Shown here: positions 831-23,762 of the stretch, in pieces | How positions within the stretch are numbered: position 1 is the stretch's first letter | Layout of the letters: the number at the start of each line of letters is the position of its first letter | Source: a virus | DNA length: 28,185 nucleotides | Virus record (IMG/VR): IMGVR_UViG_3300032087_005496 | Span: 1-28,185 of that record | Direction: 5' to 3' (one strand) | Made by a program: the position numbers and the translations under genes | The notes under the pieces: generated by a model | Told to the model about the DNA's origin: nothing | Database searches by the model: none | Seen by the model: the letters and a program-made list of their open reading frames with translations, nothing else

Positions 831-1859
831 TTACAGTATGACACTGGCGTTTTTGTTGATCCAATCCTTTAGATCAGCATTTGTAAGTAATGTTTTGTCT
901 TTAGCTAGACAGCCTTTGACAGCAATTACTTGATACTCAACCGGTAACTTTGTTACTAGTTGCATAATATTTTTTAGTTTAGGCGCTTCTGCACGGGCGG
1001 CAATAGCACCTGATAAAGCATACAAGATAGCTGGATTATCGTCAGCTTTTAGCTTGTAAGTTGATGGGTCGTCAATAAGTTTGTCGACATCTGGTAAATC
1101 GTCAGCAATTTCTTTGAAAGCAACGAACTCACCAGCTGGACCATCACCAACCAAGGCAGCAACACCATAGAAGAAATCTTCTTTAGTGGTTGACTTGTCA
1201 TAAGTTGCTAGTTTTTTGTCAACAAATGACCAAGACCTTGGAGTTGGAAAAGCATACTCATCAGCACTAAATGAATTTAGTAAGCCGGGTCGGTATTGCA
1301 AAAACGAAATGATGGATGAGTCAATGCCATTAGCAAATGCCCAGTCCGCCCAAGCTTCGATGGTGGGTTCTAACTCATAATGAGCAAGCCTGTTACGGAC
1401 TGGTGAGGGCATTTGATAAACTGCAGCTGAGTCAGTCAGTCTATTACCCGCTGCAAGAATTGACCACCCATCAGGTAGTGTGTAGTCGCCTACTTGTCTT
1501 GTAAGCAGTAATTGCAAAAATGCATTCTGCGTTGCTGGTGGGGCAGTTGGCAACTCGTCAATGAACAACAAGCCACGGTCCCCGTCCCGCTGTGTAATAG
1601 GAAATACATCTGGTACTGCCCATTTGGTAAAGCGCTTACCAGATTCTTTCAATGATACAATGTGTGGAATACCACGCACATCGACAGGATCAAACAAGTT
1701 TGCCCTGAAGTCTAAGATACCAATACCAAGCTCTTTAGCAACTTGGGCTGGTATGTCGGATTTACCGATACCTGGTCCACCCCATATCATGGTGTTTAGA
1801 CCAGCACGTAAATTAGCTTTGATCTCCGAGACCAAAGTCTTTGGATTTATTTGATGCAT
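831..1859 (-). CDS. MoxR-type AAA+ ATPase
   Basis: AAA+ ATPase of the MoxR group (342 aa), a chaperone-like motor that usually remodels a partner protein, often one with a von Willebrand A domain. Visible motifs: Walker A GGPGIGKSD at residues 27-35, Walker B LLFIDEL at 97-103 (Asp101, Glu102), sensor-1 Asn139 in LAAGNR, and arginine-finger candidates in SPVRNR (155-157). The PDVFP segment before Walker B is typical of MoxR proteins. The C-terminal third is probably the helical lid. The start has a perfect AAGGAGGT site. Neighbours are the 67-residue gene 5 bases upstream and the 213-residue gene 12 bases downstream. Similar ATPases occur in N4-like and other phages next to VWA-domain genes. 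No VWA protein is visible here, but it could lie beyond the left edge. Cytosolic. The family call is firm; the phage role is unknown. Confidence 0.93.
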   Translation of the reverse strand: MHQINPKTLVSEIKANLRAGLNTMIWGGPGIGKSDIPAQVAKELGIGILDFRANLFDPVDVRGIPHIVSLKESGKRFTKWAVPDVFPITQRDGDRGLLFIDELPTAPPATQNAFLQLLLTRQVGDYTLPDGWSILAAGNRLTDSAAVYQMPSPVRNRLAHYELEPTIEAWADWAFANGIDSSIISFLQYRPGLLNSFSADEYAFPTPRSWSFVDKKLATYDKSTTKEDFFYGVAALVGDGPAGEFVAFKEIADDLPDVDKLIDDPSTYKLKADDNPAILYALSGAIAARAEAPKLKNIMQLVTKLPVEYQVIAVKGCLAKDKTLLTNADLKDWINKNASVIL

Positions 1860-3043: not shown

Positions 3044-3778
3044 AAAAATTGACTTCGTGTGGTCTTTCGACTTCACATTCATGTCAATTGCTACTTTGAG
3101 TGACTGATCAACTACATTGGTGTAGTTCCAATCAGCCAAACGCTGCAGCCTCCTCTCCACTTCCGTTCTGACGCGCTTAGTTTCCAACGCAGTCTTGTTC
3201 AGACCAAATCTGTTGTCAACTTTAGCTACGACATCACGAAGCATACGAGCTTTACGTCCAAGACCAATCATACGTTCTTCACGTTCAATGAGCCATGTTG
3301 GTAACTCTTCATTGGGATTAGCTTGCTCAGCTTCTTCTTTGTACTCGTACGCAATAGAAGCGAACTCAGCCCATGTTCTGGTGTTGAGTTGCAAGAAACT
3401 AATACCAGTAGATTGTGGATCAGTCTCACACATGACAAGTAAGCCTTGTACAATCGTATCGACTTGATTCTCATAATACGCTTGCTCTTTGTCGGCATTA
3501 TCGCCTGCAAAAGTAACAGGTGTATCTTTCTTGTCTTCAAAGACTTGCATGATGCCATCAACGCGCAGGGCATTGAAGGTTGGTTTACCATCGACATCCA
3601 GTGCATATTTCTTGAAGAAATAGTCTGGTAATTGTATGGCGTCTGGTCGAGCACGTTCTTCCGCACCTTCTGGATCGCCCATAGTATCGTCATTGTACAT
3701 GTCGTCAGTAGTCTCGACTGCTGGGACAAGTTCCTCGCGTTCGACATCAAAGATGTCTGAAGTTTTTGCATTAGCCAT
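3032..3778 (-). CDS. hypothetical protein, 248 aa
   Basis: A soluble, acidic protein. The first 50 residues are strongly acidic and probably disordered (DDMYNDDTMGDPEGAEE), followed by a helical body with a basic C-terminal third (residues about 170-215, ERMIGLGRKARMLRD and similar). No cysteine cluster, nucleotide-binding loop or membrane segment. The start has a CAGGAGG site that lies inside the preceding 38-residue gene, which it overlaps by 8 bases. It is the first sizeable product of the left operon, immediately downstream of the TGTWACA array. An acidic head with a basic body would suit a nucleic-acid-binding or DNA-mimic protein, but this is only inference; no family is recognised. Confidence 0.8.
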   Translation of the reverse strand: MANAKTSDIFDVEREELVPAVETTDDMYNDDTMGDPEGAEERARPDAIQLPDYFFKKYALDVDGKPTFNALRVDGIMQVFEDKKDTPVTFAGDNADKEQAYYENQVDTIVQGLLVMCETDPQSTGISFLQLNTRTWAEFASIAYEYKEEAEQANPNEELPTWLIEREERMIGLGRKARMLRDVVAKVDNRFGLNKTALETKRVRTEVERRLQRLADWNYTNVVDQSLKVAIDMNVKSKDHTKSIFDLA

Positions 3779-3887
3779 TTAAACCTCCTGTTGTAGTAGC
3801 TAAATTAACACTAGTTTCAGCTTGCATATCAAGTTCAGCTTGCTCTGCAAGTTTTAGGATTTCGTAATTTACATATACTTCACTCAT
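3771..3887 (-). CDS. small peptide heading the left operon, 38 aa
   Basis: Thirty-eight residues, opening MSEVYVNYEILKLAEQAELD. The ATG at 3885-3887 is chosen because an optimal TAAGGAGG site lies five bases upstream. The frame extends further upstream to 3971, but that extension has no ribosome site and runs through a hairpin, so I reject it. The first half is a predicted helix and the second half is Thr/Gly-rich. It overlaps the 248-residue gene by eight bases, so it may serve partly as a translational lead-in for that gene. Function unknown. Confidence 0.65.
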   Translation of the reverse strand: MSEVYVNYEILKLAEQAELDMQAETSVNLATTTGGLNG

Positions 3888-3922
3888 ATAAACCTCCTTA
3901 TATAAATAAATGAAATAAATAC

Positions 3923-3959
3923 ACAAAAAAACTCCTAACACGACCGCCCCGTGGTCGTG
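3923..3959 (-). terminator. hairpin with T-run in the left operon leader
   Basis: On the minus strand: CACGACC, a 7-base loop, GGTCGTG (arms 3953-3959 and 3939-3945), a perfect 7-bp stem. Seven bases later there is a run of seven T. It sits between the TGTWACA array and the first gene of the left operon. The gap between stem and T-run makes it a weak terminator; attenuation of the left operon is possible. Confidence 0.4.
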
Positions 3960-3961
3960 AA

Positions 3962-4288
3962 AGTTACACACTGCTGTAACATTTTAACGAAAGAATGCGG
4001 GTTTCAGAGGAAATGTTACAGCTGTTACAGCTAAAAAATCACAAGTGTAACATCGGAAAGGTGCATGGATAAAGGCTTGGGGGAATTCTGTTACATGTTA
4101 CAGATAAAAACGAACTTCGTAGGCAGAACAACGAACAACGGTCGACTTTGTACAACTCAAGTTTTGAAAACCTGTAACTTTGTAACATTTTGACGTGCAA
4201 GACATCCCAAACCCTTTTGTTGGCTGCGCAAAAGCATGTTACAGAAGTAGTGTTACACATGGGCTTATGACGTGTAACATCTGTAACA
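3962..4288. repeat. cluster of TGTWACA heptamers
   Basis: Eleven exact copies of TGTAACA or its complement TGTTACA start at 3975, 4014, 4023, 4046, 4089, 4096, 4181, 4237, 4251, 4273 and 4282. One-mismatch copies are AGTTACA at 3962 and TGTAACT at 4173. Several are paired at 7, 8 or 9 base spacing. Read in one orientation, most are preceded by C or G and followed by T. The heptamer is itself an odd palindrome (TGT-W-ACA). The 513-base gap from 3888 to 4400 contains no convincing gene and consists largely of this array. Likely a multi-site binding region for a repressor or activator, or replication-origin iterons. Confidence 0.85.
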
Positions 4289-4317
4289 TTTTTTCAGCAC
4301 AGCACAACGCACATCCA

Positions 4318-4332
4318 CATCACTTCGTGATG
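4318..4332. repeat. triloop hairpin
   Basis: CATCAC-TTC-GTGATG, a perfect 6-bp inverted repeat with a three-base loop, between the heptamer array and the leftward terminator. A 10-base direct repeat, GATGATAGTA, begins within it (4329-4338) and recurs at 4352-4361. No T-run follows on either strand, so it is not a terminator. Confidence 0.5.
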
Positions 4333-4360
4333 ATAGTAGTAGCACACGCACGATGATAGT

Positions 4361-4393
4361 AATAAAAAAAAGAATGGGGGACCGAAGCCCCCC
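4361..4393 (-). terminator. strong leftward intrinsic terminator
   Basis: On the minus strand the sequence is GGGGGGC-TTCG-GTCCCCC (4387-4393 with 4376-4382) followed by ATTCTTTTTTTT. The stem has seven pairs including one G-U wobble that exists only in the minus-strand RNA (on the other strand it would be an A-C mismatch). The loop is the very stable UUCG tetraloop. It starts 8 bases beyond the stop of the 37-residue gene and ends the 4933-to-4401 transcript, separating it from the left operon. Confidence 0.9.
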
Positions 4394-4400
4394 TACGAGG

Positions 4401-4514
4401 TTACTCTTTTGGAAGAGTAAAGAAGAATTTATAGAGCATGTACCAGCTAACGAATGTGCTGATGATAAGTAACGCTACCCATACACAGAGTAGTCCAAGA
4501 AAAATGTCTAACAT
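4401..4514 (-). CDS. tiny single-span membrane protein, 37 aa
   Basis: Not previously obvious because of its size. It begins MLDIFLGLLCVWVALLIIST, and about residues 4-28 form one hydrophobic membrane helix followed by a short YKFFFTLPKE tail. The ATG has a CCGGAGG site five bases upstream, located in the last codons of the 66-residue gene, and the two genes abut with no gap. It is the last gene before a strong terminator. Size and topology suit a membrane-active phage peptide (holin partner, superinfection exclusion or inhibitor of a host membrane protein). The sequence does not decide among these. Confidence 0.72.
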   Translation of the reverse strand: MLDIFLGLLCVWVALLIISTFVSWYMLYKFFFTLPKE

Positions 4515-4715
4515 TTATTCCTCCGGGTTGTATAACAAAATGGCTTTGCCACAGATAAAAGAAACAAGCCCCATTGTGAACCAGATAAACAGTTCAAGTA
4601 TAGACTGTTGACCTACGTAGTTGAGGATGTCATGAGTAAGTAAAGCGAAAAGTACTAGTGATCCCGAGAAGACCACTAGTAAGATTACGTTAGAGAAGAA
4701 TCGCATTCTAGTCAT
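4515..4715 (-). CDS. small two-span membrane protein, 66 aa
   Basis: Two hydrophobic helices are visible: about residues 8-27 (SNVILLVVFSGSLVLFALLT) and 39-61 (ILELFIWFTMGLVSFICGKA onward), with basic residues at the N-terminus (TRMRF) and an acidic end (NPEE). It overlaps the upstream 73-residue gene by four bases (ATGA). Two-span proteins of this length include small class II holins and pinholins as well as superinfection-exclusion proteins. Being grouped with another membrane peptide and closed by a terminator fits such a cassette, but there is no endolysin next to it in this window. Confidence 0.75.
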   Translation of the reverse strand: MTRMRFFSNVILLVVFSGSLVLFALLTHDILNYVGQQSILELFIWFTMGLVSFICGKAILLYNPEE

Positions 4716-4933
4716 AAGTCCATCTCCATTTGCACGGGGTTCTTGGACCTAGTATCTTTCTTAAGTAAGAGATCAATCTCTTTACCATGGTAACCAACAG
4801 CTACTTCATTCAGAGCATTCTTACTTCCCTCGACTAAACTCGGACCTACACTCTTTACAGAATCATAAGCCTTCTTACTAACATGCTTGGTAAGAGCAAT
4901 ACCCTCACCTATTTTATAAAATAAATCTTTCAT
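4712..4933 (-). CDS. small amphipathic protein, 73 aa
   Basis: The start MKDLFYKIGEGIALTKHVSK is chosen over an in-frame ATG farther upstream because an AAGAGGT ribosome site lies seven bases before it. Lysine-rich, probably mostly helical (KHVSKKAYDSVKSV, SKNALNEVAVGYHG, KEIDLLLKKD), with no true membrane segment. It is the first gene of the three-gene leftward cassette and overlaps the 66-residue membrane gene by four bases. No family recognised; association with the membrane partners is inferred from gene order only. Confidence 0.7.
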   Translation of the reverse strand: MKDLFYKIGEGIALTKHVSKKAYDSVKSVGPSLVEGSKNALNEVAVGYHGKEIDLLLKKDTRSKNPVQMEMDL

Positions 4934-4965
4934 AATATTTACCTCTTTATATAGATTAAATAACA

Positions 4966-4985
4966 TAAGTAACACCCATTACTTA
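4966..4985. promoter_or_regulatory. perfect inverted repeat, candidate operator
   Basis: TAAGTAA-N6-TTACTTA, a perfect 7-bp dyad, 33 bases upstream of the first leftward start codon in the divergence region. Position and symmetry suit an operator for a dimeric regulator of the leftward cassette. No convincing -35/-10 pair could be assigned beside it. Confidence 0.45.
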
Positions 4986-5007
4986 CACTTGATACACCAC
5001 AATAGCG

Positions 5008-5024
5008 CGCCATGGAACATGGCG
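5008..5024. repeat. triloop hairpin in the divergence region
   Basis: CGCCATG-GAA-CATGGCG, a perfect 7-bp inverted repeat with a three-base loop. No T-run on either side. Same style as the TTC triloop hairpin at 4318-4332 (loops are complementary). Apart from this, the inverted repeat and the G-runs, the 4934-5230 gap holds a purine-rich stretch (about 5056-5085) and no gene I can support. Confidence 0.5.
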
Positions 5025-5139
5025 TGATATCCACGGACAACTAAGCCCGAGTGGCGTTTGAACGAAAAAAGAAAAGAGAAAAAACCAATACAAGGTTCCA
5101 AACGATGAAACCTGAACTGTGAATTACAGATGTCGAAAA

Positions 5140-5170
5140 GGGGGAAGGGGGTCTGTGCTGGCAGGGGGGG
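5140..5170 (+). other. G-run block with quadruplex potential
   Basis: On the plus strand: five G (5140-5144), AA, five G (5147-5151), twelve bases, seven G (5164-5170). The last run can supply two G-tracts, so a four-tract quadruplex is possible. It stands out in an otherwise A/T-rich phage and lies 60-90 bases ahead of the first rightward gene. Confidence 0.45.
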
Positions 5171-5194
5171 AGAAGATGACAACGGAATATAGAA

Positions 5195-5224
5195 TTCGCT
5201 TTTTCAAAAAAATTTTTGTAATAT
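5195..5224 (+). promoter_or_regulatory. candidate promoter of the HNH gene, leaderless
   Basis: A -10-like TAATAT at 5219-5224 ends six bases before the ATG at 5231, so transcription would begin at or within a base or two of the start codon. The -35 candidate TTCGCT (5195-5200, 18-base spacer) is poor. The intervening sequence is A- and T-tract DNA, and no ribosome site precedes the ATG. Confidence 0.35.
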
Positions 5225-5230
5225 TTTTTC

Positions 5231-5707
5231 ATGGAAAAACACCTCTGCAAAGAGTGTCGAAAGGAATTGAAAGAGGACCACTTTGAGTTCTTCAAAAAAA
5301 AGTACGGTCTTTATCGCCGAAAAGTTTGCAGAAAGTGTTACTATGAGCAAAGAAATAAAGTCCGATCTTCAACTCCCTATAACTATTTAAAAATTGTTAT
5401 TCAACAACTTAAATCGAAAAGAGTTAAAGAAGGAGTGGAGTGGGACTTAACTTGGGAAGAGCTCTGCGAAGTATGGGACGACCAAGAAGCAGTATGCGCT
5501 TTATCAGGAGTATTGATGACACATAAAAAAGGTGATGGACACCAAGAACTAAACGCGACCATTGACCGTGTAGACGGCAGCGGACCGTATACCAAGGACA
5601 ACGTTCAACTGGTTTGCCACCGCGCGAACCTTATTAAACACACTATGACCGAGGACGACTTGTACTGGTGGTGCCGCAACATAGTGACAAACAAAGATAA
5701 AATCTAA
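5231..5707 (+). CDS. HNH endonuclease with N-terminal zinc ribbon
   Basis: A 158-residue nuclease. The N-terminal zinc ribbon uses Cys6/Cys9 (CKEC) and Cys33/Cys36 (CRKC). The HNH core runs from Cys89 (CALSG) through ATIDRVDGSGPYTKDNVQLV, with Asp112, Asp115 and Asn124, to Cys129-His130 and the following LIKHTM. This is the IDR-D...Y-DN-V-C type common in free-standing phage HNH enzymes. It is the first rightward gene, directly before terS. HNH proteins in that position assist packaging in some cos phages (established for HK97-like phages), but many phage HNH genes are selfish homing endonucleases. Both readings are open here. No Shine-Dalgarno precedes the ATG; a 36-codon frame with a good site (5176-5286) overlaps its start in another frame. 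The start is kept because the first zinc-ribbon pair lies at residue 6. Confidence 0.9.
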   Translation: MEKHLCKECRKELKEDHFEFFKKKYGLYRRKVCRKCYYEQRNKVRSSTPYNYLKIVIQQLKSKRVKEGVEWDLTWEELCEVWDDQEAVCALSGVLMTHKKGDGHQELNATIDRVDGSGPYTKDNVQLVCHRANLIKHTMTEDDLYWWCRNIVTNKDKI

Positions 5708-17912: not shown

Positions 17913-20900
17913 GTGGCGAAAGATACAGAGTTCAAAGTTGGACAATTTGATGCCTCTGGTGATTTTGACGCTGTAGAACAGTTTCAATCTGGGCCCGGTG
18001 TTGACGGCGCCGAAATAACTGACCCCATACAAGCTTTTCAAACCGGGGTACAAGCAGGCGGGTTAAACCTTGTCGCTAATCTAGAATATTTTAATGCTAT
18101 TGGTAACTCCATTATGGGGGAACAAAAGGCTCGGGACCGTGCTATTGCTAGAGCGCAAAACCTGCAACAAGATTCGGCCTCTTTAATGGCAGATTTTGAA
18201 AGCTTTGAAAATTTCTTAGAAGAGCCTACTGTCGGTGGTTTTATAAATCAAGTTTTTAGTGCTACAGGGCAATTTGCTCCTTCCGCTGCTGCGAGTATGG
18301 CTGCAGCTTTGACGGGTGCAGGTGTTGGGGCTTTAATTGGAGGGGTTGCTTTAAAAGCAGGGGGACAAAGTGCTTTAACAAGTTTGGCTACTAAACGAGT
18401 TGCTCAAAAAGAAATCAAAAATATAGTCAATAAAAAACTTAGAAATGAAACCTTAGATGAAGCTGAAGAAGGTTTACTAAATGCTACTTATGATAAATTA
18501 AGAAAAGACTATTTTAATAGACAAATAGGCAGAGGGGCTATAGCTGGAGCGGTTGCTCAAGAATACCCTCAAGGCGCTGGTATTGCTTTTGGCACCTTTG
18601 CTGAGCAAGACATGGTTGATCCTGTTCAAGCTTTTCAATCTTTAGGCTTAGGAGTTCCTTTTGCTGCTGTTGGTGTTGGCTCTGAAGCTTTAATCGCTAA
18701 CAACTTTAGAAAGATACTCATGAAAGGTAAAGGGCCTTTACACAACCAAATCTTACAATCTATTGGAGTTTCAGCTACAGCTGAAGGTGTTACTGAGGCT
18801 TTACAAGAAGAGCTTACTGTGCAACAAAGGTTTGCTATTGATGACGATTATGAACAAGCTCATGCAAACTTAGATAGAGCGCAAGCTTTGTTTGCAGGTT
18901 TTTTTGGTGGTGCTGGCGTTGGTGCAGCTGGTGGTACAGTAGCCTCTGTTATTGGTAAAGCTAGAGAAGGTGTAAATGAAGGGTATGTAGCGCAAATTGA
19001 AAAGAACTTTGAATCTGAAAGATTCGGCAATACTGAAGACGGTAAAGTCGCGCCTGAGCCTAAAGGTTGGTTACTTGCTCAAATGAGAGCAATGGTAGAC
19101 CCAAGCAACAAAAAAGATTCTGTATTTATTGATGCTAATTCATACCAACAAGCACAAGAACTACAGAATGACCCTAGGTATGCAGACTTATTTGCTCAAG
19201 CTGGCGCTAAATTTGTTGATGGTGGTCGTATGGGGACTTTACTTAGTTCTAACGAAGAATCCTTAGCTAGATTTGCAGACCTTGTAAAAAATAACCCTAA
19301 TGACACTTTAGCTTTAGATGCACTTTTAGTAGACATCTTAGGTTTTACTAACAATAGAAATGTAGGACAAGATACCTCAGTAGTAGAAGTATCAGACCTC
19401 GACGGCAACTTAATTTGGTACCAAACGGTTGACCAAGAAACTAAAGCTGCTGCAGAAAGAAAAGCTCGAGAACTTTTTGGTAATGAAGCTAGGGTAGAGT
19501 CAGTTTCTATTTCTGACCATGTACTAAAAAGAAAACAAAAAGTACAAGAAGAAAAAATGGGGAGAACTAGAGGGTCTGGTGCTTTTACTTTACAAGAAGG
19601 TTTAGATGAAGTTAGACAAGACCAAGCGGCTGCTATGGAACAAGAGGACCCTTCTGCTATTTTTGCTAACCTCCCAGAACCTGGTATTGCAGAATCAACT
19701 CCACCTATTAGAGCTTCTTTACGTTCTTTAGGTAGAAAAGTAGAAGGCCGTACTAGAGAAGTTATTCCTTTCGAAGTGCAAATGCCTGAGGGTGAAGGTT
19801 GGGCAGTTGGTAAAAAAACAAACCTTAAATTTATAGAAGAAGAGGTTATTAACAAAGCCAAAGGTTTTTTTCCAGAGTTTAAAAGCCTTAATGACCAATT
19901 AAATGCAAACTTAGAAGCTGGTCGATACTCTAACGCACTTCTCAATACCTATAACGAAATAAGTGAAAAGTTTCCTAGTAATCTTTACACCATTACGGAG
20001 TTTGAAAACAATGTGGGAGAAACTAGGTATCAAATACAAGAGTTAAAAACACAAGACCTTGATACTATGCTGCCTGCTCTTATTCCAACTAAAGTTCAAC
20101 AAGCCTTAGAGATTGAGTCTAATATTGAGAATAATATTCAACAAGCTAGAGAAAAAAACATACCAATAGAAAAAGGCAAAAGAACTACTTTAACTGGGTT
20201 TAAAATAAAAACACCTGGTAGTAACCAGTTTAGACCAGTTTATATGCCAGTTTTAACTTCCTTTGGTAGAAAACTAAACGCTGCTTTAAGAATGGAGACT
20301 GCCAACCCTAAAGAACAAACCGAACAAGAACAAATTAGAGATGGGTTTGGCACTATTTATTTTTATCTTACAGACCAAGGCTATGAATTTACTTGGCCAG
20401 GAAAAGATAATTTTAACACCTCTTTAGAAAAGTCTAATGCTATTGTGTATGCTGACAAGGGTAAAAATTTAAGTTTAAAAGCTTTACAGCCCGGCAAGTT
20501 TGGGGTGCCTGGTATTGTTGGAAAGGCTTTAACTCGAGAAGAAAAGTTTAATAATTTAAAAAAACAGATTAGAGAGGCTTTTGAAGTAGGTAGATATGAT
20601 CGTCAACCTTTTGACCTTGCAACTTTGGAAGAACAGTTTACTGACCCTGAGCAACTAGAAGAACTAGAGGATTTTGTTGAAGAAGTTATTAACCCGCAAA
20701 TACCAAGCGTTGCTGCTAAGATTACAACACCATCAAGACTTGAAGCTGGAGAGTTTTTAGAGGCCGAAGCAGACACTCAAGCAGAGACTTTAGAAGGCAC
20801 TCTTGACGCCTTGACTCCTACTCAACAAAAAAACTTAGAGCTTAGAGAACTACAAAAAGAATCTTTATTAAACGGTGTTCCTGATAAGAATAACCCTTAC

Positions 20901-23762
20901 TATGGTGGGCCAAGCAAAGACAACGTAAAAATAAGTGAAGACGTTAGGGCCGTTTTGGGTACAAATTTTCCCAACTTTTTACAAAACATAGTAAAAAATA
21001 AATTTAAAATATTTAGAAATATTCGTATTCATACTCATGTAGAGGATTTAGATAAAACGTTACCATTAAATTTTGATTTAGCCCCTAAACCAAAGCTGCA
21101 GGAAGAAGGAGAAAAACAAAAGGACGGGGATATCTCAAGACTTGAATTTATAAAATCAGCACAAGCTCAGCTTAGAAATGACCCAGAGGCCCAAGGTCGT
21201 ATTGTAAGTATTGGGAACACTGACATTATTTTACTTAAGGTACCAGAGGCGCAAATTGCAGCAGGATCAACAGTAGAGAATGTAGCAGCACAGGGCCGAG
21301 CTTATTTAGCTTTAGCTCACGAACTTGGCCATGTGGTTTTTAACCAAGAAATAGACAACGTATTAGATAACAAAGCTCTTAGAGATAGGTTGTATTTAGC
21401 TTTTGAAAAAGATGCTGCAGCCGAAGGGGCACCGCGTATATACAGCGAGGAGCATGGCTTTGAAGAGTGGTACTCTGATAATCTTGCTTCTTTTCTTTTA
21501 AAAGAATTTAAACAAGAAAGGCAAAAACCTAAAAATGCGGTCGAAGGTTTTTTTGTTCGTATGGCTAAAAAGTTAAAAGCTGCTTGGGACACACTATCTC
21601 GTGAAGTTCGAAGAAGGTTTCAAATAAACCCAACTTTTGATGAGTATATTACAGAAGTAGTAGCTTCTTATAAAAAAGGTATTAGAGAGCCTAGCAGGAA
21701 AAAAATACCATTTATTCAGGTACGTAATGCACAGTTTGTAGCTGAAAAAATTGTACCAAAGTTTGCAGAAAAATATGTTGGCAAGAACTTTGCAAATAGA
21801 GTAAGAAGAGAAACTACACAGTTTTTATCTTCTGACAACCAAGTCTCAAGGATTGCTAAATATATTACGATGCCCTCTGCTAACTTTTTACGAAGTCTGG
21901 GTAAAGAAAATAAAACTGGAGATAAATTAGCTGATATTTTTGAAACTCGATCTCAAACTACTGATACAAAAGGTTTGGTACAAGCTAAACTTTTAAATAC
22001 TAATTCAGCTTTAAATGAGATAGAAGCTATCTTAGGCATTGATAGAAAAACTGGAGTCACTCAAGAAGCAATACAGGTTCTTTTAGAAACAGAAGATAAC
22101 CTTGTAAATGACAGAGACCTTCCATCAGAACAAAGCCGAGAAATAAGAAGTTGGCTAAAAGATTTTTACAACAAAAATAAACTTAGCCTTATTTTTAAAG
22201 GCGAAGCTCTAGAAAATTATTTTCCACGTCTTTTAGACCTTCAAAAACTAGACACTAGTGAAGGGGCGCAAGAACTAGCTAATATTCTTCTTCAATATAA
22301 TCCAGATTTAAAAGCAAAAGCGGCTTTAGGTATAGCTCAAGAGTTAAGAAAAGCCATTGATCCAAATGATGCTTTAATGGAAGGTAATCAACAGAATGAA
22401 GACGAGGGCCCTACTTCTTTTAACCTAGGTTTAGCTAAAAATAGAACTAAATACTTTGCGAACGTTCCTACTAAAGCTCTACGAGAGGCCGGCTTTTTAC
22501 GCCCACCAGAAGTAGCTTTAAGAACTTATATTGCTAATACTGTAAAAAGGGTTGAGTATAACAAAAGAGGCGGGGCTAAAAGAGTTCAATTTCTTTTAGA
22601 CCAATTACCAGAAAACCAAAAAGAAGCAGCTGAAAAAGCTGTTAATGCTAATTTAGGTAGAACCAATGCAGCGCTTGGTCCTATTTCAAGGTTTGTTAAT
22701 AGTTGGGGTTTAGTCTCTAATATTTTAAGTTTACTAGCTTTCTCTGTTTTTGCTTCTTTGCCTGACTTTGCAGGACCCGTGCTGCGTTCTAAGTCCTTTA
22801 ATAGTATAAAAAATGTTACTGACGTTTTGTCTAATAAAGTTAACAGAGAGGAAGCCGCACAGTTGGCAAAAGATATAGGAGTAGTATCAACTGATGCTAT
22901 TAGTAGTATGTACGTTAATGCTGCAGAGTTAGACTATATGAGTGATAACGCCAAATTTATCTCAGAAAAGTTCTTTGAGTATACTGGTTTAAACTGGTAC
23001 ACCCAGTTTACTAGAGAGTTTGCTGCTGGCATGGGTAAAAGGTTTTTAGTAGAGCACGCAAAGAAAGCCGAAAAAGGTAATGAAACTTCTATTAGGTACT
23101 TAAAAGAATTAAATTTAAATGCAAAAGAAGTAAACGCTTGGATAAAAGATAACTTTGATGTTAAAAACCATACAAAAGTTAAAGAAGGACTAGGAAGATT
23201 TGTTGAAGAGTCTATTGTTCGACCTGATGCTTCACAAAGGCCTGTTTGGGCCTCTGACCCTAGGTTTGCTTTAATTTGGCAGCTTAAGTCTTTCTTTTAT
23301 GCTTACGGTAAAAATATTATTGGTGGGGTTTCTAATGAAGTTAAAGCTCGAGCCAAAGCTGGTCAAAAAATACCGAACATTGCTTTCCCTATTTTATTGG
23401 CAGCTTCCACACTTCTGCCTTTAAGTATGTTAGGGTTAGACCTAAGAGAAAGGTTTAAAGTTGGTTTAGACTGGTTACTACCTTTCACTGGACCTAAGAA
23501 TGACAGTGGTATTTTTGATTCTTCTGGCAAAGACTACAGAAAAAGTTTAGATATGGAGCCAGGAGAGTACGTTTTTGAAATACTAGATAGGTCGGGAGTG
23601 TTTGGGCCTTTTGCTTTAGCTATGCCCTTGTTTATGCAAGAAAAGCGTTATGGCGACCCATTTTGGGTATCGCCTTTAGGTCCGAGTGTAGAGAAAGGTT
23701 TTGATTTCTTAGAAGGAGATTTAGATTTTGATGATATCATTCCTATTTGGAGTCAGTTATAA
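17913..23762 (+). CDS. giant ejection protein with zinc-metallopeptidase motif, 1949 aa
   Basis: Starts at GTG (TAA-T-GTG junction); the ATG at 17911 is out of frame. Visible parts in order: Gly/Ala-rich hydrophobic segments at about 121-150, 200-225 and 325-348; a long mixed region; a zincin motif HELGHVVF with His1136, Glu1137, His1140 and a likely third ligand in FEEWYSDN (Glu1184/Glu1185); basic linkers; and a C-terminal region with hydrophobic stretches near 1598-1625 and 1822-1842 around the conserved-looking RFALIWQLKSFFYAYGK (from Arg1784). Position after three smaller internal proteins matches T7 gp16, the largest ejected protein, which carries a transglycosylase; here a protease signature is found and no lysozyme motif. 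It also recalls polyvalent phage proteins that include zincin domains and enter the host with the DNA. The zincin call is from motif only. Confidence 0.8.
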   Translation: MAKDTEFKVGQFDASGDFDAVEQFQSGPGVDGAEITDPIQAFQTGVQAGGLNLVANLEYFNAIGNSIMGEQKARDRAIARAQNLQQDSASLMADFESFENFLEEPTVGGFINQVFSATGQFAPSAAASMAAALTGAGVGALIGGVALKAGGQSALTSLATKRVAQKEIKNIVNKKLRNETLDEAEEGLLNATYDKLRKDYFNRQIGRGAIAGAVAQEYPQGAGIAFGTFAEQDMVDPVQAFQSLGLGVPFAAVGVGSEALIANNFRKILMKGKGPLHNQILQSIGVSATAEGVTEALQEELTVQQRFAIDDDYEQAHANLDRAQALFAGFFGGAGVGAAGGTVASVIGKAREGVNEGYVAQIEKNFESERFGNTEDGKVAPEPKGWLLAQMRAMVDPSNKKDSVFIDANSYQQAQELQNDPRYADLFAQAGAKFVDGGRMGTLLSSNEESLARFADLVKNNPNDTLALDALLVDILGFTNNRNVGQDTSVVEVSDLDGNLIWYQTVDQETKAAAERKARELFGNEARVESVSISDHVLKRKQKVQEEKMGRTRGSGAFTLQEGLDEVRQDQAAAMEQEDPSAIFANLPEPGIAESTPPIRASLRSLGRKVEGRTREVIPFEVQMPEGEGWAVGKKTNLKFIEEEVINKAKGFFPEFKSLNDQLNANLEAGRYSNALLNTYNEISEKFPSNLYTITEFENNVGETRYQIQELKTQDLDTMLPALIPTKVQQALEIESNIENNIQQAREKNIPIEKGKRTTLTGFKIKTPGSNQFRPVYMPVLTSFGRKLNAALRMETANPKEQTEQEQIRDGFGTIYFYLTDQGYEFTWPGKDNFNTSLEKSNAIVYADKGKNLSLKALQPGKFGVPGIVGKALTREEKFNNLKKQIREAFEVGRYDRQPFDLATLEEQFTDPEQLEELEDFVEEVINPQIPSVAAKITTPSRLEAGEFLEAEADTQAETLEGTLDALTPTQQKNLELRELQKESLLNGVPDKNNPYYGGPSKDNVKISEDVRAVLGTNFPNFLQNIVKNKFKIFRNIRIHTHVEDLDKTLPLNFDLAPKPKLQEEGEKQKDGDISRLEFIKSAQAQLRNDPEAQGRIVSIGNTDIILLKVPEAQIAAGSTVENVAAQGRAYLALAHELGHVVFNQEIDNVLDNKALRDRLYLAFEKDAAAEGAPRIYSEEHGFEEWYSDNLASFLLKEFKQERQKPKNAVEGFFVRMAKKLKAAWDTLSREVRRRFQINPTFDEYITEVVASYKKGIREPSRKKIPFIQVRNAQFVAEKIVPKFAEKYVGKNFANRVRRETTQFLSSDNQVSRIAKYITMPSANFLRSLGKENKTGDKLADIFETRSQTTDTKGLVQAKLLNTNSALNEIEAILGIDRKTGVTQEAIQVLLETEDNLVNDRDLPSEQSREIRSWLKDFYNKNKLSLIFKGEALENYFPRLLDLQKLDTSEGAQELANILLQYNPDLKAKAALGIAQELRKAIDPNDALMEGNQQNEDEGPTSFNLGLAKNRTKYFANVPTKALREAGFLRPPEVALRTYIANTVKRVEYNKRGGAKRVQFLLDQLPENQKEAAEKAVNANLGRTNAALGPISRFVNSWGLVSNILSLLAFSVFASLPDFAGPVLRSKSFNSIKNVTDVLSNKVNREEAAQLAKDIGVVSTDAISSMYVNAAELDYMSDNAKFISEKFFEYTGLNWYTQFTREFAAGMGKRFLVEHAKKAEKGNETSIRYLKELNLNAKEVNAWIKDNFDVKNHTKVKEGLGRFVEESIVRPDASQRPVWASDPRFALIWQLKSFFYAYGKNIIGGVSNEVKARAKAGQKIPNIAFPILLAASTLLPLSMLGLDLRERFKVGLDWLLPFTGPKNDSGIFDSSGKDYRKSLDMEPGEYVFEILDRSGVFGPFALAMPLFMQEKRYGDPFWVSPLGPSVEKGFDFLEGDLDFDDIIPIWSQL

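Follow-up and report, generated by a model that had tools for sequence, protein, structure and literature searches.

Mirrored TGTWACA repeats in an uncultured tailed-phage lineage: a probable replication origin of the P4/PICI working type

What is the function of a dense cluster of short, nearly identical repeats at the junction between divergent phage genes? The window analyzed here is a 28,185-base contig from an uncultured virus. It carries 11 exact copies of the heptamer TGTWACA (beginning at 3975, 4014, 4023, 4046, 4089, 4096, 4181, 4237, 4251, 4273, and 4282) and two one-mismatch copies, AGTTACA (3962-3968, minus strand) and TGTAACT (4171-4177), and only three further TGTWACA heptamers were found in the rest of the 28 kb. 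Dinucleotide shuffles of the whole window (n = 400) never gave more than 3 sites per 320 bp, and shuffles of 3962-4288 alone (n = 5,000) gave a mean of 0.23 sites and a maximum of 3. A sequence-only reading of this DNA had pointed to the density of the cluster, which is borne out by these counts, and had left the choice among a regulator-binding array, a set of partition or origin iterons, and a decoy for a host protein. We conclude, with a probability of roughly 0.87, that the array is the phage origin of DNA replication and that the heptamers are the iterons of the phage's own ~810-amino-acid (aa) primase-helicase.

The arrangement of the sites is highly ordered. Both orientations are present, as the sequence-only reading had noted, but they are not mixed at random; instead, the sites form two inverted half-arrays that flank a conserved center at 4138-4156. 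Written as TGTAAC hexamers with their gaps and orientations, the window reads < 12 > 40 < 9 < 22 > 44 < 7 < 76 > 8 > 57 < 14 < 21 > 9 >. Inward from the one-mismatch copy at 3962, the left half consists of an outer TGTAACA (3975-3981, plus strand), which is kept in 13 of 14 aligned arrays; a minus-strand pair at 4014 and 4023, 9 bp apart (4014-4029); a flipped site 22 to 23 bp from that pair (4046-4052, plus strand); and, 43 to 44 bp from 4046, a minus-strand pair at 4089 and 4096 that borders the center (4089-4102). The right half consists of a plus-strand pair made up of the TGTAACT copy at 4171 and a TGTAACA at 4181 (4171-4187), a minus-strand pair at 4237 and 4251, 14 bp apart (4237-4257), and, at its outer end, a plus-strand pair with 9-bp spacing (4273-4288). 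Exact sites are thus spaced by 7, 9, 14, 22 to 23, 39, 43, and 56 bp, which corrects the pair spacings of 7, 8, 9, and 14 given previously. The left trio (4014, 4023, and 4046) mirrors the right trio (4251, 4273, and 4282) about a dyad center near 4148, at ACGGTCGACTTTGTACAAC (in many relatives, ACGGTCGACGGTCG). This center is a candidate melting or second-factor site and is only mildly AT rich in the window. An almost perfect mirror (9, 9, 22, 45, 8, 124, 9, 44, 22, 9, and 9 bp) was found in L150, a Saprospiraceae metagenome-assembled genome (MAG) in which a VapE helicase gene adjoins the array. GC skew changes sign at the array in the window, but because the genes also diverge there, the skew is confounded with gene direction and is uninformative as an origin test.

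The position of the array with respect to the neighboring genes raises the possibility of a role in transcription. Rightward genes encode an HNH endonuclease, TerS, TerL, the portal, and the capsid, and leftward genes start at 3887 with the first small open reading frame (ORF) of the left (early/replication) operon (3771-3887, minus strand). The array had been described as framed by a terminator and a leader hairpin. The terminator, an intrinsic terminator of short leftward transcripts upstream of the array (4393-4376, minus strand), is real (z = -2.7); the hairpin that opens the left-operon leader (3939-3959, minus strand; -13.5 kcal/mol) is present but unexceptional (z = -1.2). Since the array lies between the terminator and the first gene, the left-operon promoter must be in or near it, and a phage or host regulator could bind the heptamers cooperatively and switch the left operon, with no origin role at all. 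We consider this explanation unlikely: a search of 3700-5300 detected no sigma-70 consensus promoter, the switches in motif described below track the C terminus of the helicase and not another protein, the layout matches that of the experimentally known P4 origin, and similar arrays lie beside primase-helicase genes under other gene orders. An initiator bound at an origin could also autoregulate, and with the start of the left operon adjoining the array, an additional part in controlling that operon's promoter is compatible with an origin. An Rfam search of the window found no structured RNA family. A 13-mer element, TGATGATAGTAGT, is present at 4328-4340, and it lies beside nearly every array in the family; it was also noted at 4353-4362 of the window and in L041, L060, L031, L077, L084, and L089, and its core occurs three to four times per 57- to 59-kb genome, in many cases a short distance upstream of a leftward terminator. 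In this phage family, a MoxR-type ATPase and a DUF2201 metallopeptidase/VWA protein are conserved in the early operon (831-1859, minus strand, in the window; 9416-10516 in L208), and the structural genes of the window include one for a 1,949-aa protein (17913-23762, plus strand) that exceeds 2,100 aa in the relative L211.

Relatives, gathered by means of the left-operon protein and TerL, retain the array while neighboring genes and flanks change. Among seven divergent representative arrays, pairwise identity was 92% at the sites, 82% in the center (4136-4156), 53% in the spacers, and 47% in the flanks, in agreement with the expectation that a functional cluster would be conserved as its surroundings diverged. 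Loss of the array in relatives with the same gene order would have spoken against a function; such relatives instead carry it with a changed motif. A motif-free search for clustered 7-mers in members of the TerL family that lack TGTWACA revealed an array of TGGAACA, TGGAACC, or TGGTAC at the same locus, with 8 to 13 copies (up to 13 for TGGAACA) and with gaps and flips nearly those of the TGTWACA arrays. T gives way to G at position 3 and A to C at position 7, a single genome has T in place of A at position 4, and the TG..AC core is constant. All sites of an array change together, as expected for a single reader. Because relatives carry the nonpalindromic TGGAACA at the same places, the earlier description of the heptamer as a 7-bp odd palindrome is misleading: the site, (C/G)TGTAACA(T), in effect has a direction, and its palindromic form in the window is incidental.

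These changes also bear on the proposal that the array acts as a decoy, titrating a DNA-binding protein of the host. Numerous identical short sites packed closely together would suit a decoy, but number is not all that is conserved, since spacing and orientation are conserved as well. Moreover, sister phages do not share one motif, and its changes follow those of a domain encoded by the phage rather than of a host protein; for this reason we regard a decoy as very improbable.

The left operons of the family continue to genes for a family A DNA polymerase, an ~810-aa protein with a DUF5906/D5-type core, an exonuclease, and a superfamily 2 (SF2) helicase. The ~810-aa primase-helicase is the likely reader of the repeats. 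Its gene lies outside the window, ~9 kb down the left operon, and it was read from the near-identical relative L003/L227, whose left protein is 99% identical to that of the window. We gathered the protein from 53 loci, and both array and protein were known in 16 genomes; each of the further contigs searched for such pairs held the array or the helicase alone. Across the 16 genomes, 9 of 88 alignment columns (10.2%) in helicase residues 728 to 809 separated TGTWACA carriers from all others, compared with 0.2 to 2.6% of columns in 11 other regions or proteins (the remaining parts of the helicase and nine other proteins). The split between TGGAACA and TGGAACC/TGGTAC was less clean, at 5.7% in the C terminus and 7 to 9% in two other proteins. 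Iteron type tracks the C-terminal ~80 residues of the helicase and in doing so departs from the phylogeny of the other genes examined. On trees of the polymerase, the exonuclease, the SF2 helicase, the MoxR ATPase, TerL, and helicase residues 1 to 700, the TGTWACA genomes form two separate lineages, and TGTWACA and TGGAACC each arose twice; only the tree of the C terminus unites the TGTWACA genomes.

Specific residues accompany specific letters. Helicases of TGTWACA genomes have ..LNI.T(S/A)VKR and a short wing; those of TGGAACA genomes replace that V by R and have a longer wing (for example, RKRVSADKNASIPRG); and those of TGGAACC and TGGTAC genomes have RKR.(S/T)(K/T)DR. V769R pairs with the change of TGT to TGG, and K775R pairs with the change of the last A to C. 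On the helicase tree, changes between V769 and R769 and between K775 and R775 share their branches with the changes in iteron letters, twice each. With only two independent switches per base position, a sign test cannot reach significance, so we place the weight on the localization of the signal to one domain. An AlphaFold model of the C terminus shows a helix-helix-strand-wing-strand order with V769 in the wing, at moderate confidence (pLDDT of about 70). The C terminus therefore fits a winged helix in this prediction, and the covariation points to it as the probable origin-binding domain. Comparison by hhalign of the C terminus with P4 alpha was not significant, a Foldseek search with the C-terminal model gave no match below an E value of 0.03, a search of PDB sequences with the C-terminal profile found no match, and Pfam detected no Pox_D5 domain in the phage helicase. 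The L269 helicase gene is interrupted by several stop codons in its C-terminal portion, reflecting either a decayed gene or poor assembly. The isolated distant relatives phiA008 and KPP25, whose helicases are 29 to 31% identical, have no comparable array at the operon junction.

The covariation with the helicase likewise argues against a parS-like partition centromere, the least probable of the explanations considered. Repeated odd-palindromic sites in a noncoding cluster would be in keeping with parS, but no match to the ParB_N profile, the one ParB profile used, was found in 13 family contigs. In 13 family contigs, five of which are 56 to 59 kb in length, there was likewise no match to PF00589 or PF00239 and hence no sign of a tyrosine integrase or a serine recombinase; finding neither integrase nor ParB argues against both an attP site and parS. 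In an attP, the repeats would be arm-type sites that flank a recombination core and are bound by a tyrosine integrase; the two-sided arms around a conserved core would suit this, and in two unrelated viral contigs (L094, 300-1720; L097, 664-2076), TGTWACA arrays abut tyrosine integrase genes with arm-binding domains, at distances of 19 and 57 bp. Those two arrays could be arm sites of the integrase or origins lying close to it. When genomes were scanned for the left trio, no prophage of this phage family with a split array was found, and we think it highly unlikely that the array of the window is an attP.

The layout of the proposed origin closely resembles that of satellite P4. The annotated P4 type 1 ori repeats read > 10 > 11 > 23 < 42 > 10 >, and half-arrays of the family read < 9 < 10 < 22-23 > 42-43 < 9 <, so that the order of gaps and flips over six sites agrees within 1 to 2 bp; the match in orientation depends on reading the P4 sites as CTGTTCACC, aligned with CTGTAACAT, an alignment that was our own choice. 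Agreement was within 1 bp for L060 and L031 and within 2 bp for L150, and it was equaled in 0.005 to 0.08% of trials when gaps and orientations were shuffled (P = 5e-5 to 8e-4). The window is without one of the six sites, and its other four gaps fall within 3 bp. P4 alpha and the phage helicase share PF19263 (DUF5906; 2.5e-9 and 2.3e-17, respectively), and a published account, citing Yeo 2002, states that a C-terminal winged-helix domain of alpha binds the repeats (PMC4234260). There are also clear differences. The iteron letters are CTGTTCACC in P4 and (C/G)TGTAACA here; P4 ori and crr are ~5 kb apart, whereas the two inverted halves here lie within 330 bp; and P4 is a satellite, whereas the phage described here is a full tailed phage. 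Finally, alpha has Zn-ribbon and Toprim primase domains, neither of which was found in the phage helicase, and we therefore say that the array would work like P4 ori and not that it is a P4 alpha system.

Other self-loading helicases provide further parallels. According to a figure legend (PMC6092414, Fig. 2), origins of phage-inducible chromosomal islands (PICIs) have two iteron sets flanking a putative AT-rich melting region, an arrangement that the two half-arrays around a putative melting center resemble. The helicases of SaPI and of SCCmec (Cch2) read iterons through a C-terminal domain, apparently as two hexamers in the SaPI pri-rep system (PMC7581432). In PICIs, the origin is immediately 3' of rep, whereas here the helicase gene is ~9 kb away. 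SCCmec Cch and Cch2 are self-loading initiator helicases whose C-terminal domain binds repeats (PMC7581432), but they belong to different helicase families, and the Cch2 iterons are the 5-nucleotide AAGTG. In L107 and L156, the neighbors of the TGTWACA arrays are DUF927 proteins with the Cch helix-turn-helix (HTH_56). ORF904 of pRN1 combines a primase, an SF3-type helicase, and a C-terminal winged helix, but its origin has a stem-loop and no iterons (PMC4234260). The primase of phage NrS-1 is a sequence relative of the phage helicase core.

Taken with these systems, the sequence comparisons point to a probable origin of the P4/PICI working type in a lineage of full-size phages, among which whole sets of iterons have switched in concert. 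We infer that each heptamer would be bound individually by the predicted winged-helix domain at the C terminus of the helicase and that the two inverted half-arrays would seat two helicase rings, one on each side of the center. The center would then be melted between the rings, and two forks would depart in opposite directions. Of the functions proposed at the outset, origin iterons are thus strongly supported, and a part in regulating the left operon would be an addition to this role.

In unrelated elements, arrays of the same grammar also adjoin genes for DUF927, D5, VapE, and AAA_25 primase-helicases; the gaps of 9 and 22 to 24 bp were imposed by the search pattern, whereas the gap of 42 to 46 bp and the following pair were left free. 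We tentatively propose, at somewhat less than even odds, that one geometric origin rule (gaps of ~9, 10, 22, 43, and 9 bp and fixed flips, mirrored around a melting center) is common to unrelated families of self-loading helicases in phages, satellites, and integrated elements, and that a few wing residues, exchangeable as a cassette, dictate the letters (V769R for T to G and K775R for A to C). If so, origin specificity would evolve as a separable module. The comparisons extend an origin layout described from the satellites P4 and PICIs to tailed phages of full size, and also to elements whose helicases belong to other families. For a widespread lineage of uncultured phages, the analysis identifies a candidate origin and its probable initiator. 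It also supplies a naturally occurring series of origins in which all iterons changed along with a few residues of the putative reader. Since the repeats change together with the presumed DNA-reading tip of the helicase, the protein and DNA codes can be paired one letter at a time, which makes the protein-DNA code of self-loading helicases, and the way in which a replicon can exchange its whole set of iterons at once, directly testable.

A literature search for TGTTACA with iterons and replication found no paper in the collection consulted. Bacteroidales MAGs (L136 to L195) have dense TGTTACA/TGTAACA repeats with a 9-, 14-, and 23-bp rhythm in many intergenic places beside housekeeping genes, at up to about 10 places in a single genome; these chromosomal repeats, which came from the scan of a genome collection, were not counted as origin evidence. 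In L145, L154, and L196, iterons spaced by 9 bp run in frame into predicted ORFs, where they appear as VTPVTP or CNKCNK repeats and are a likely source of spurious protein predictions.
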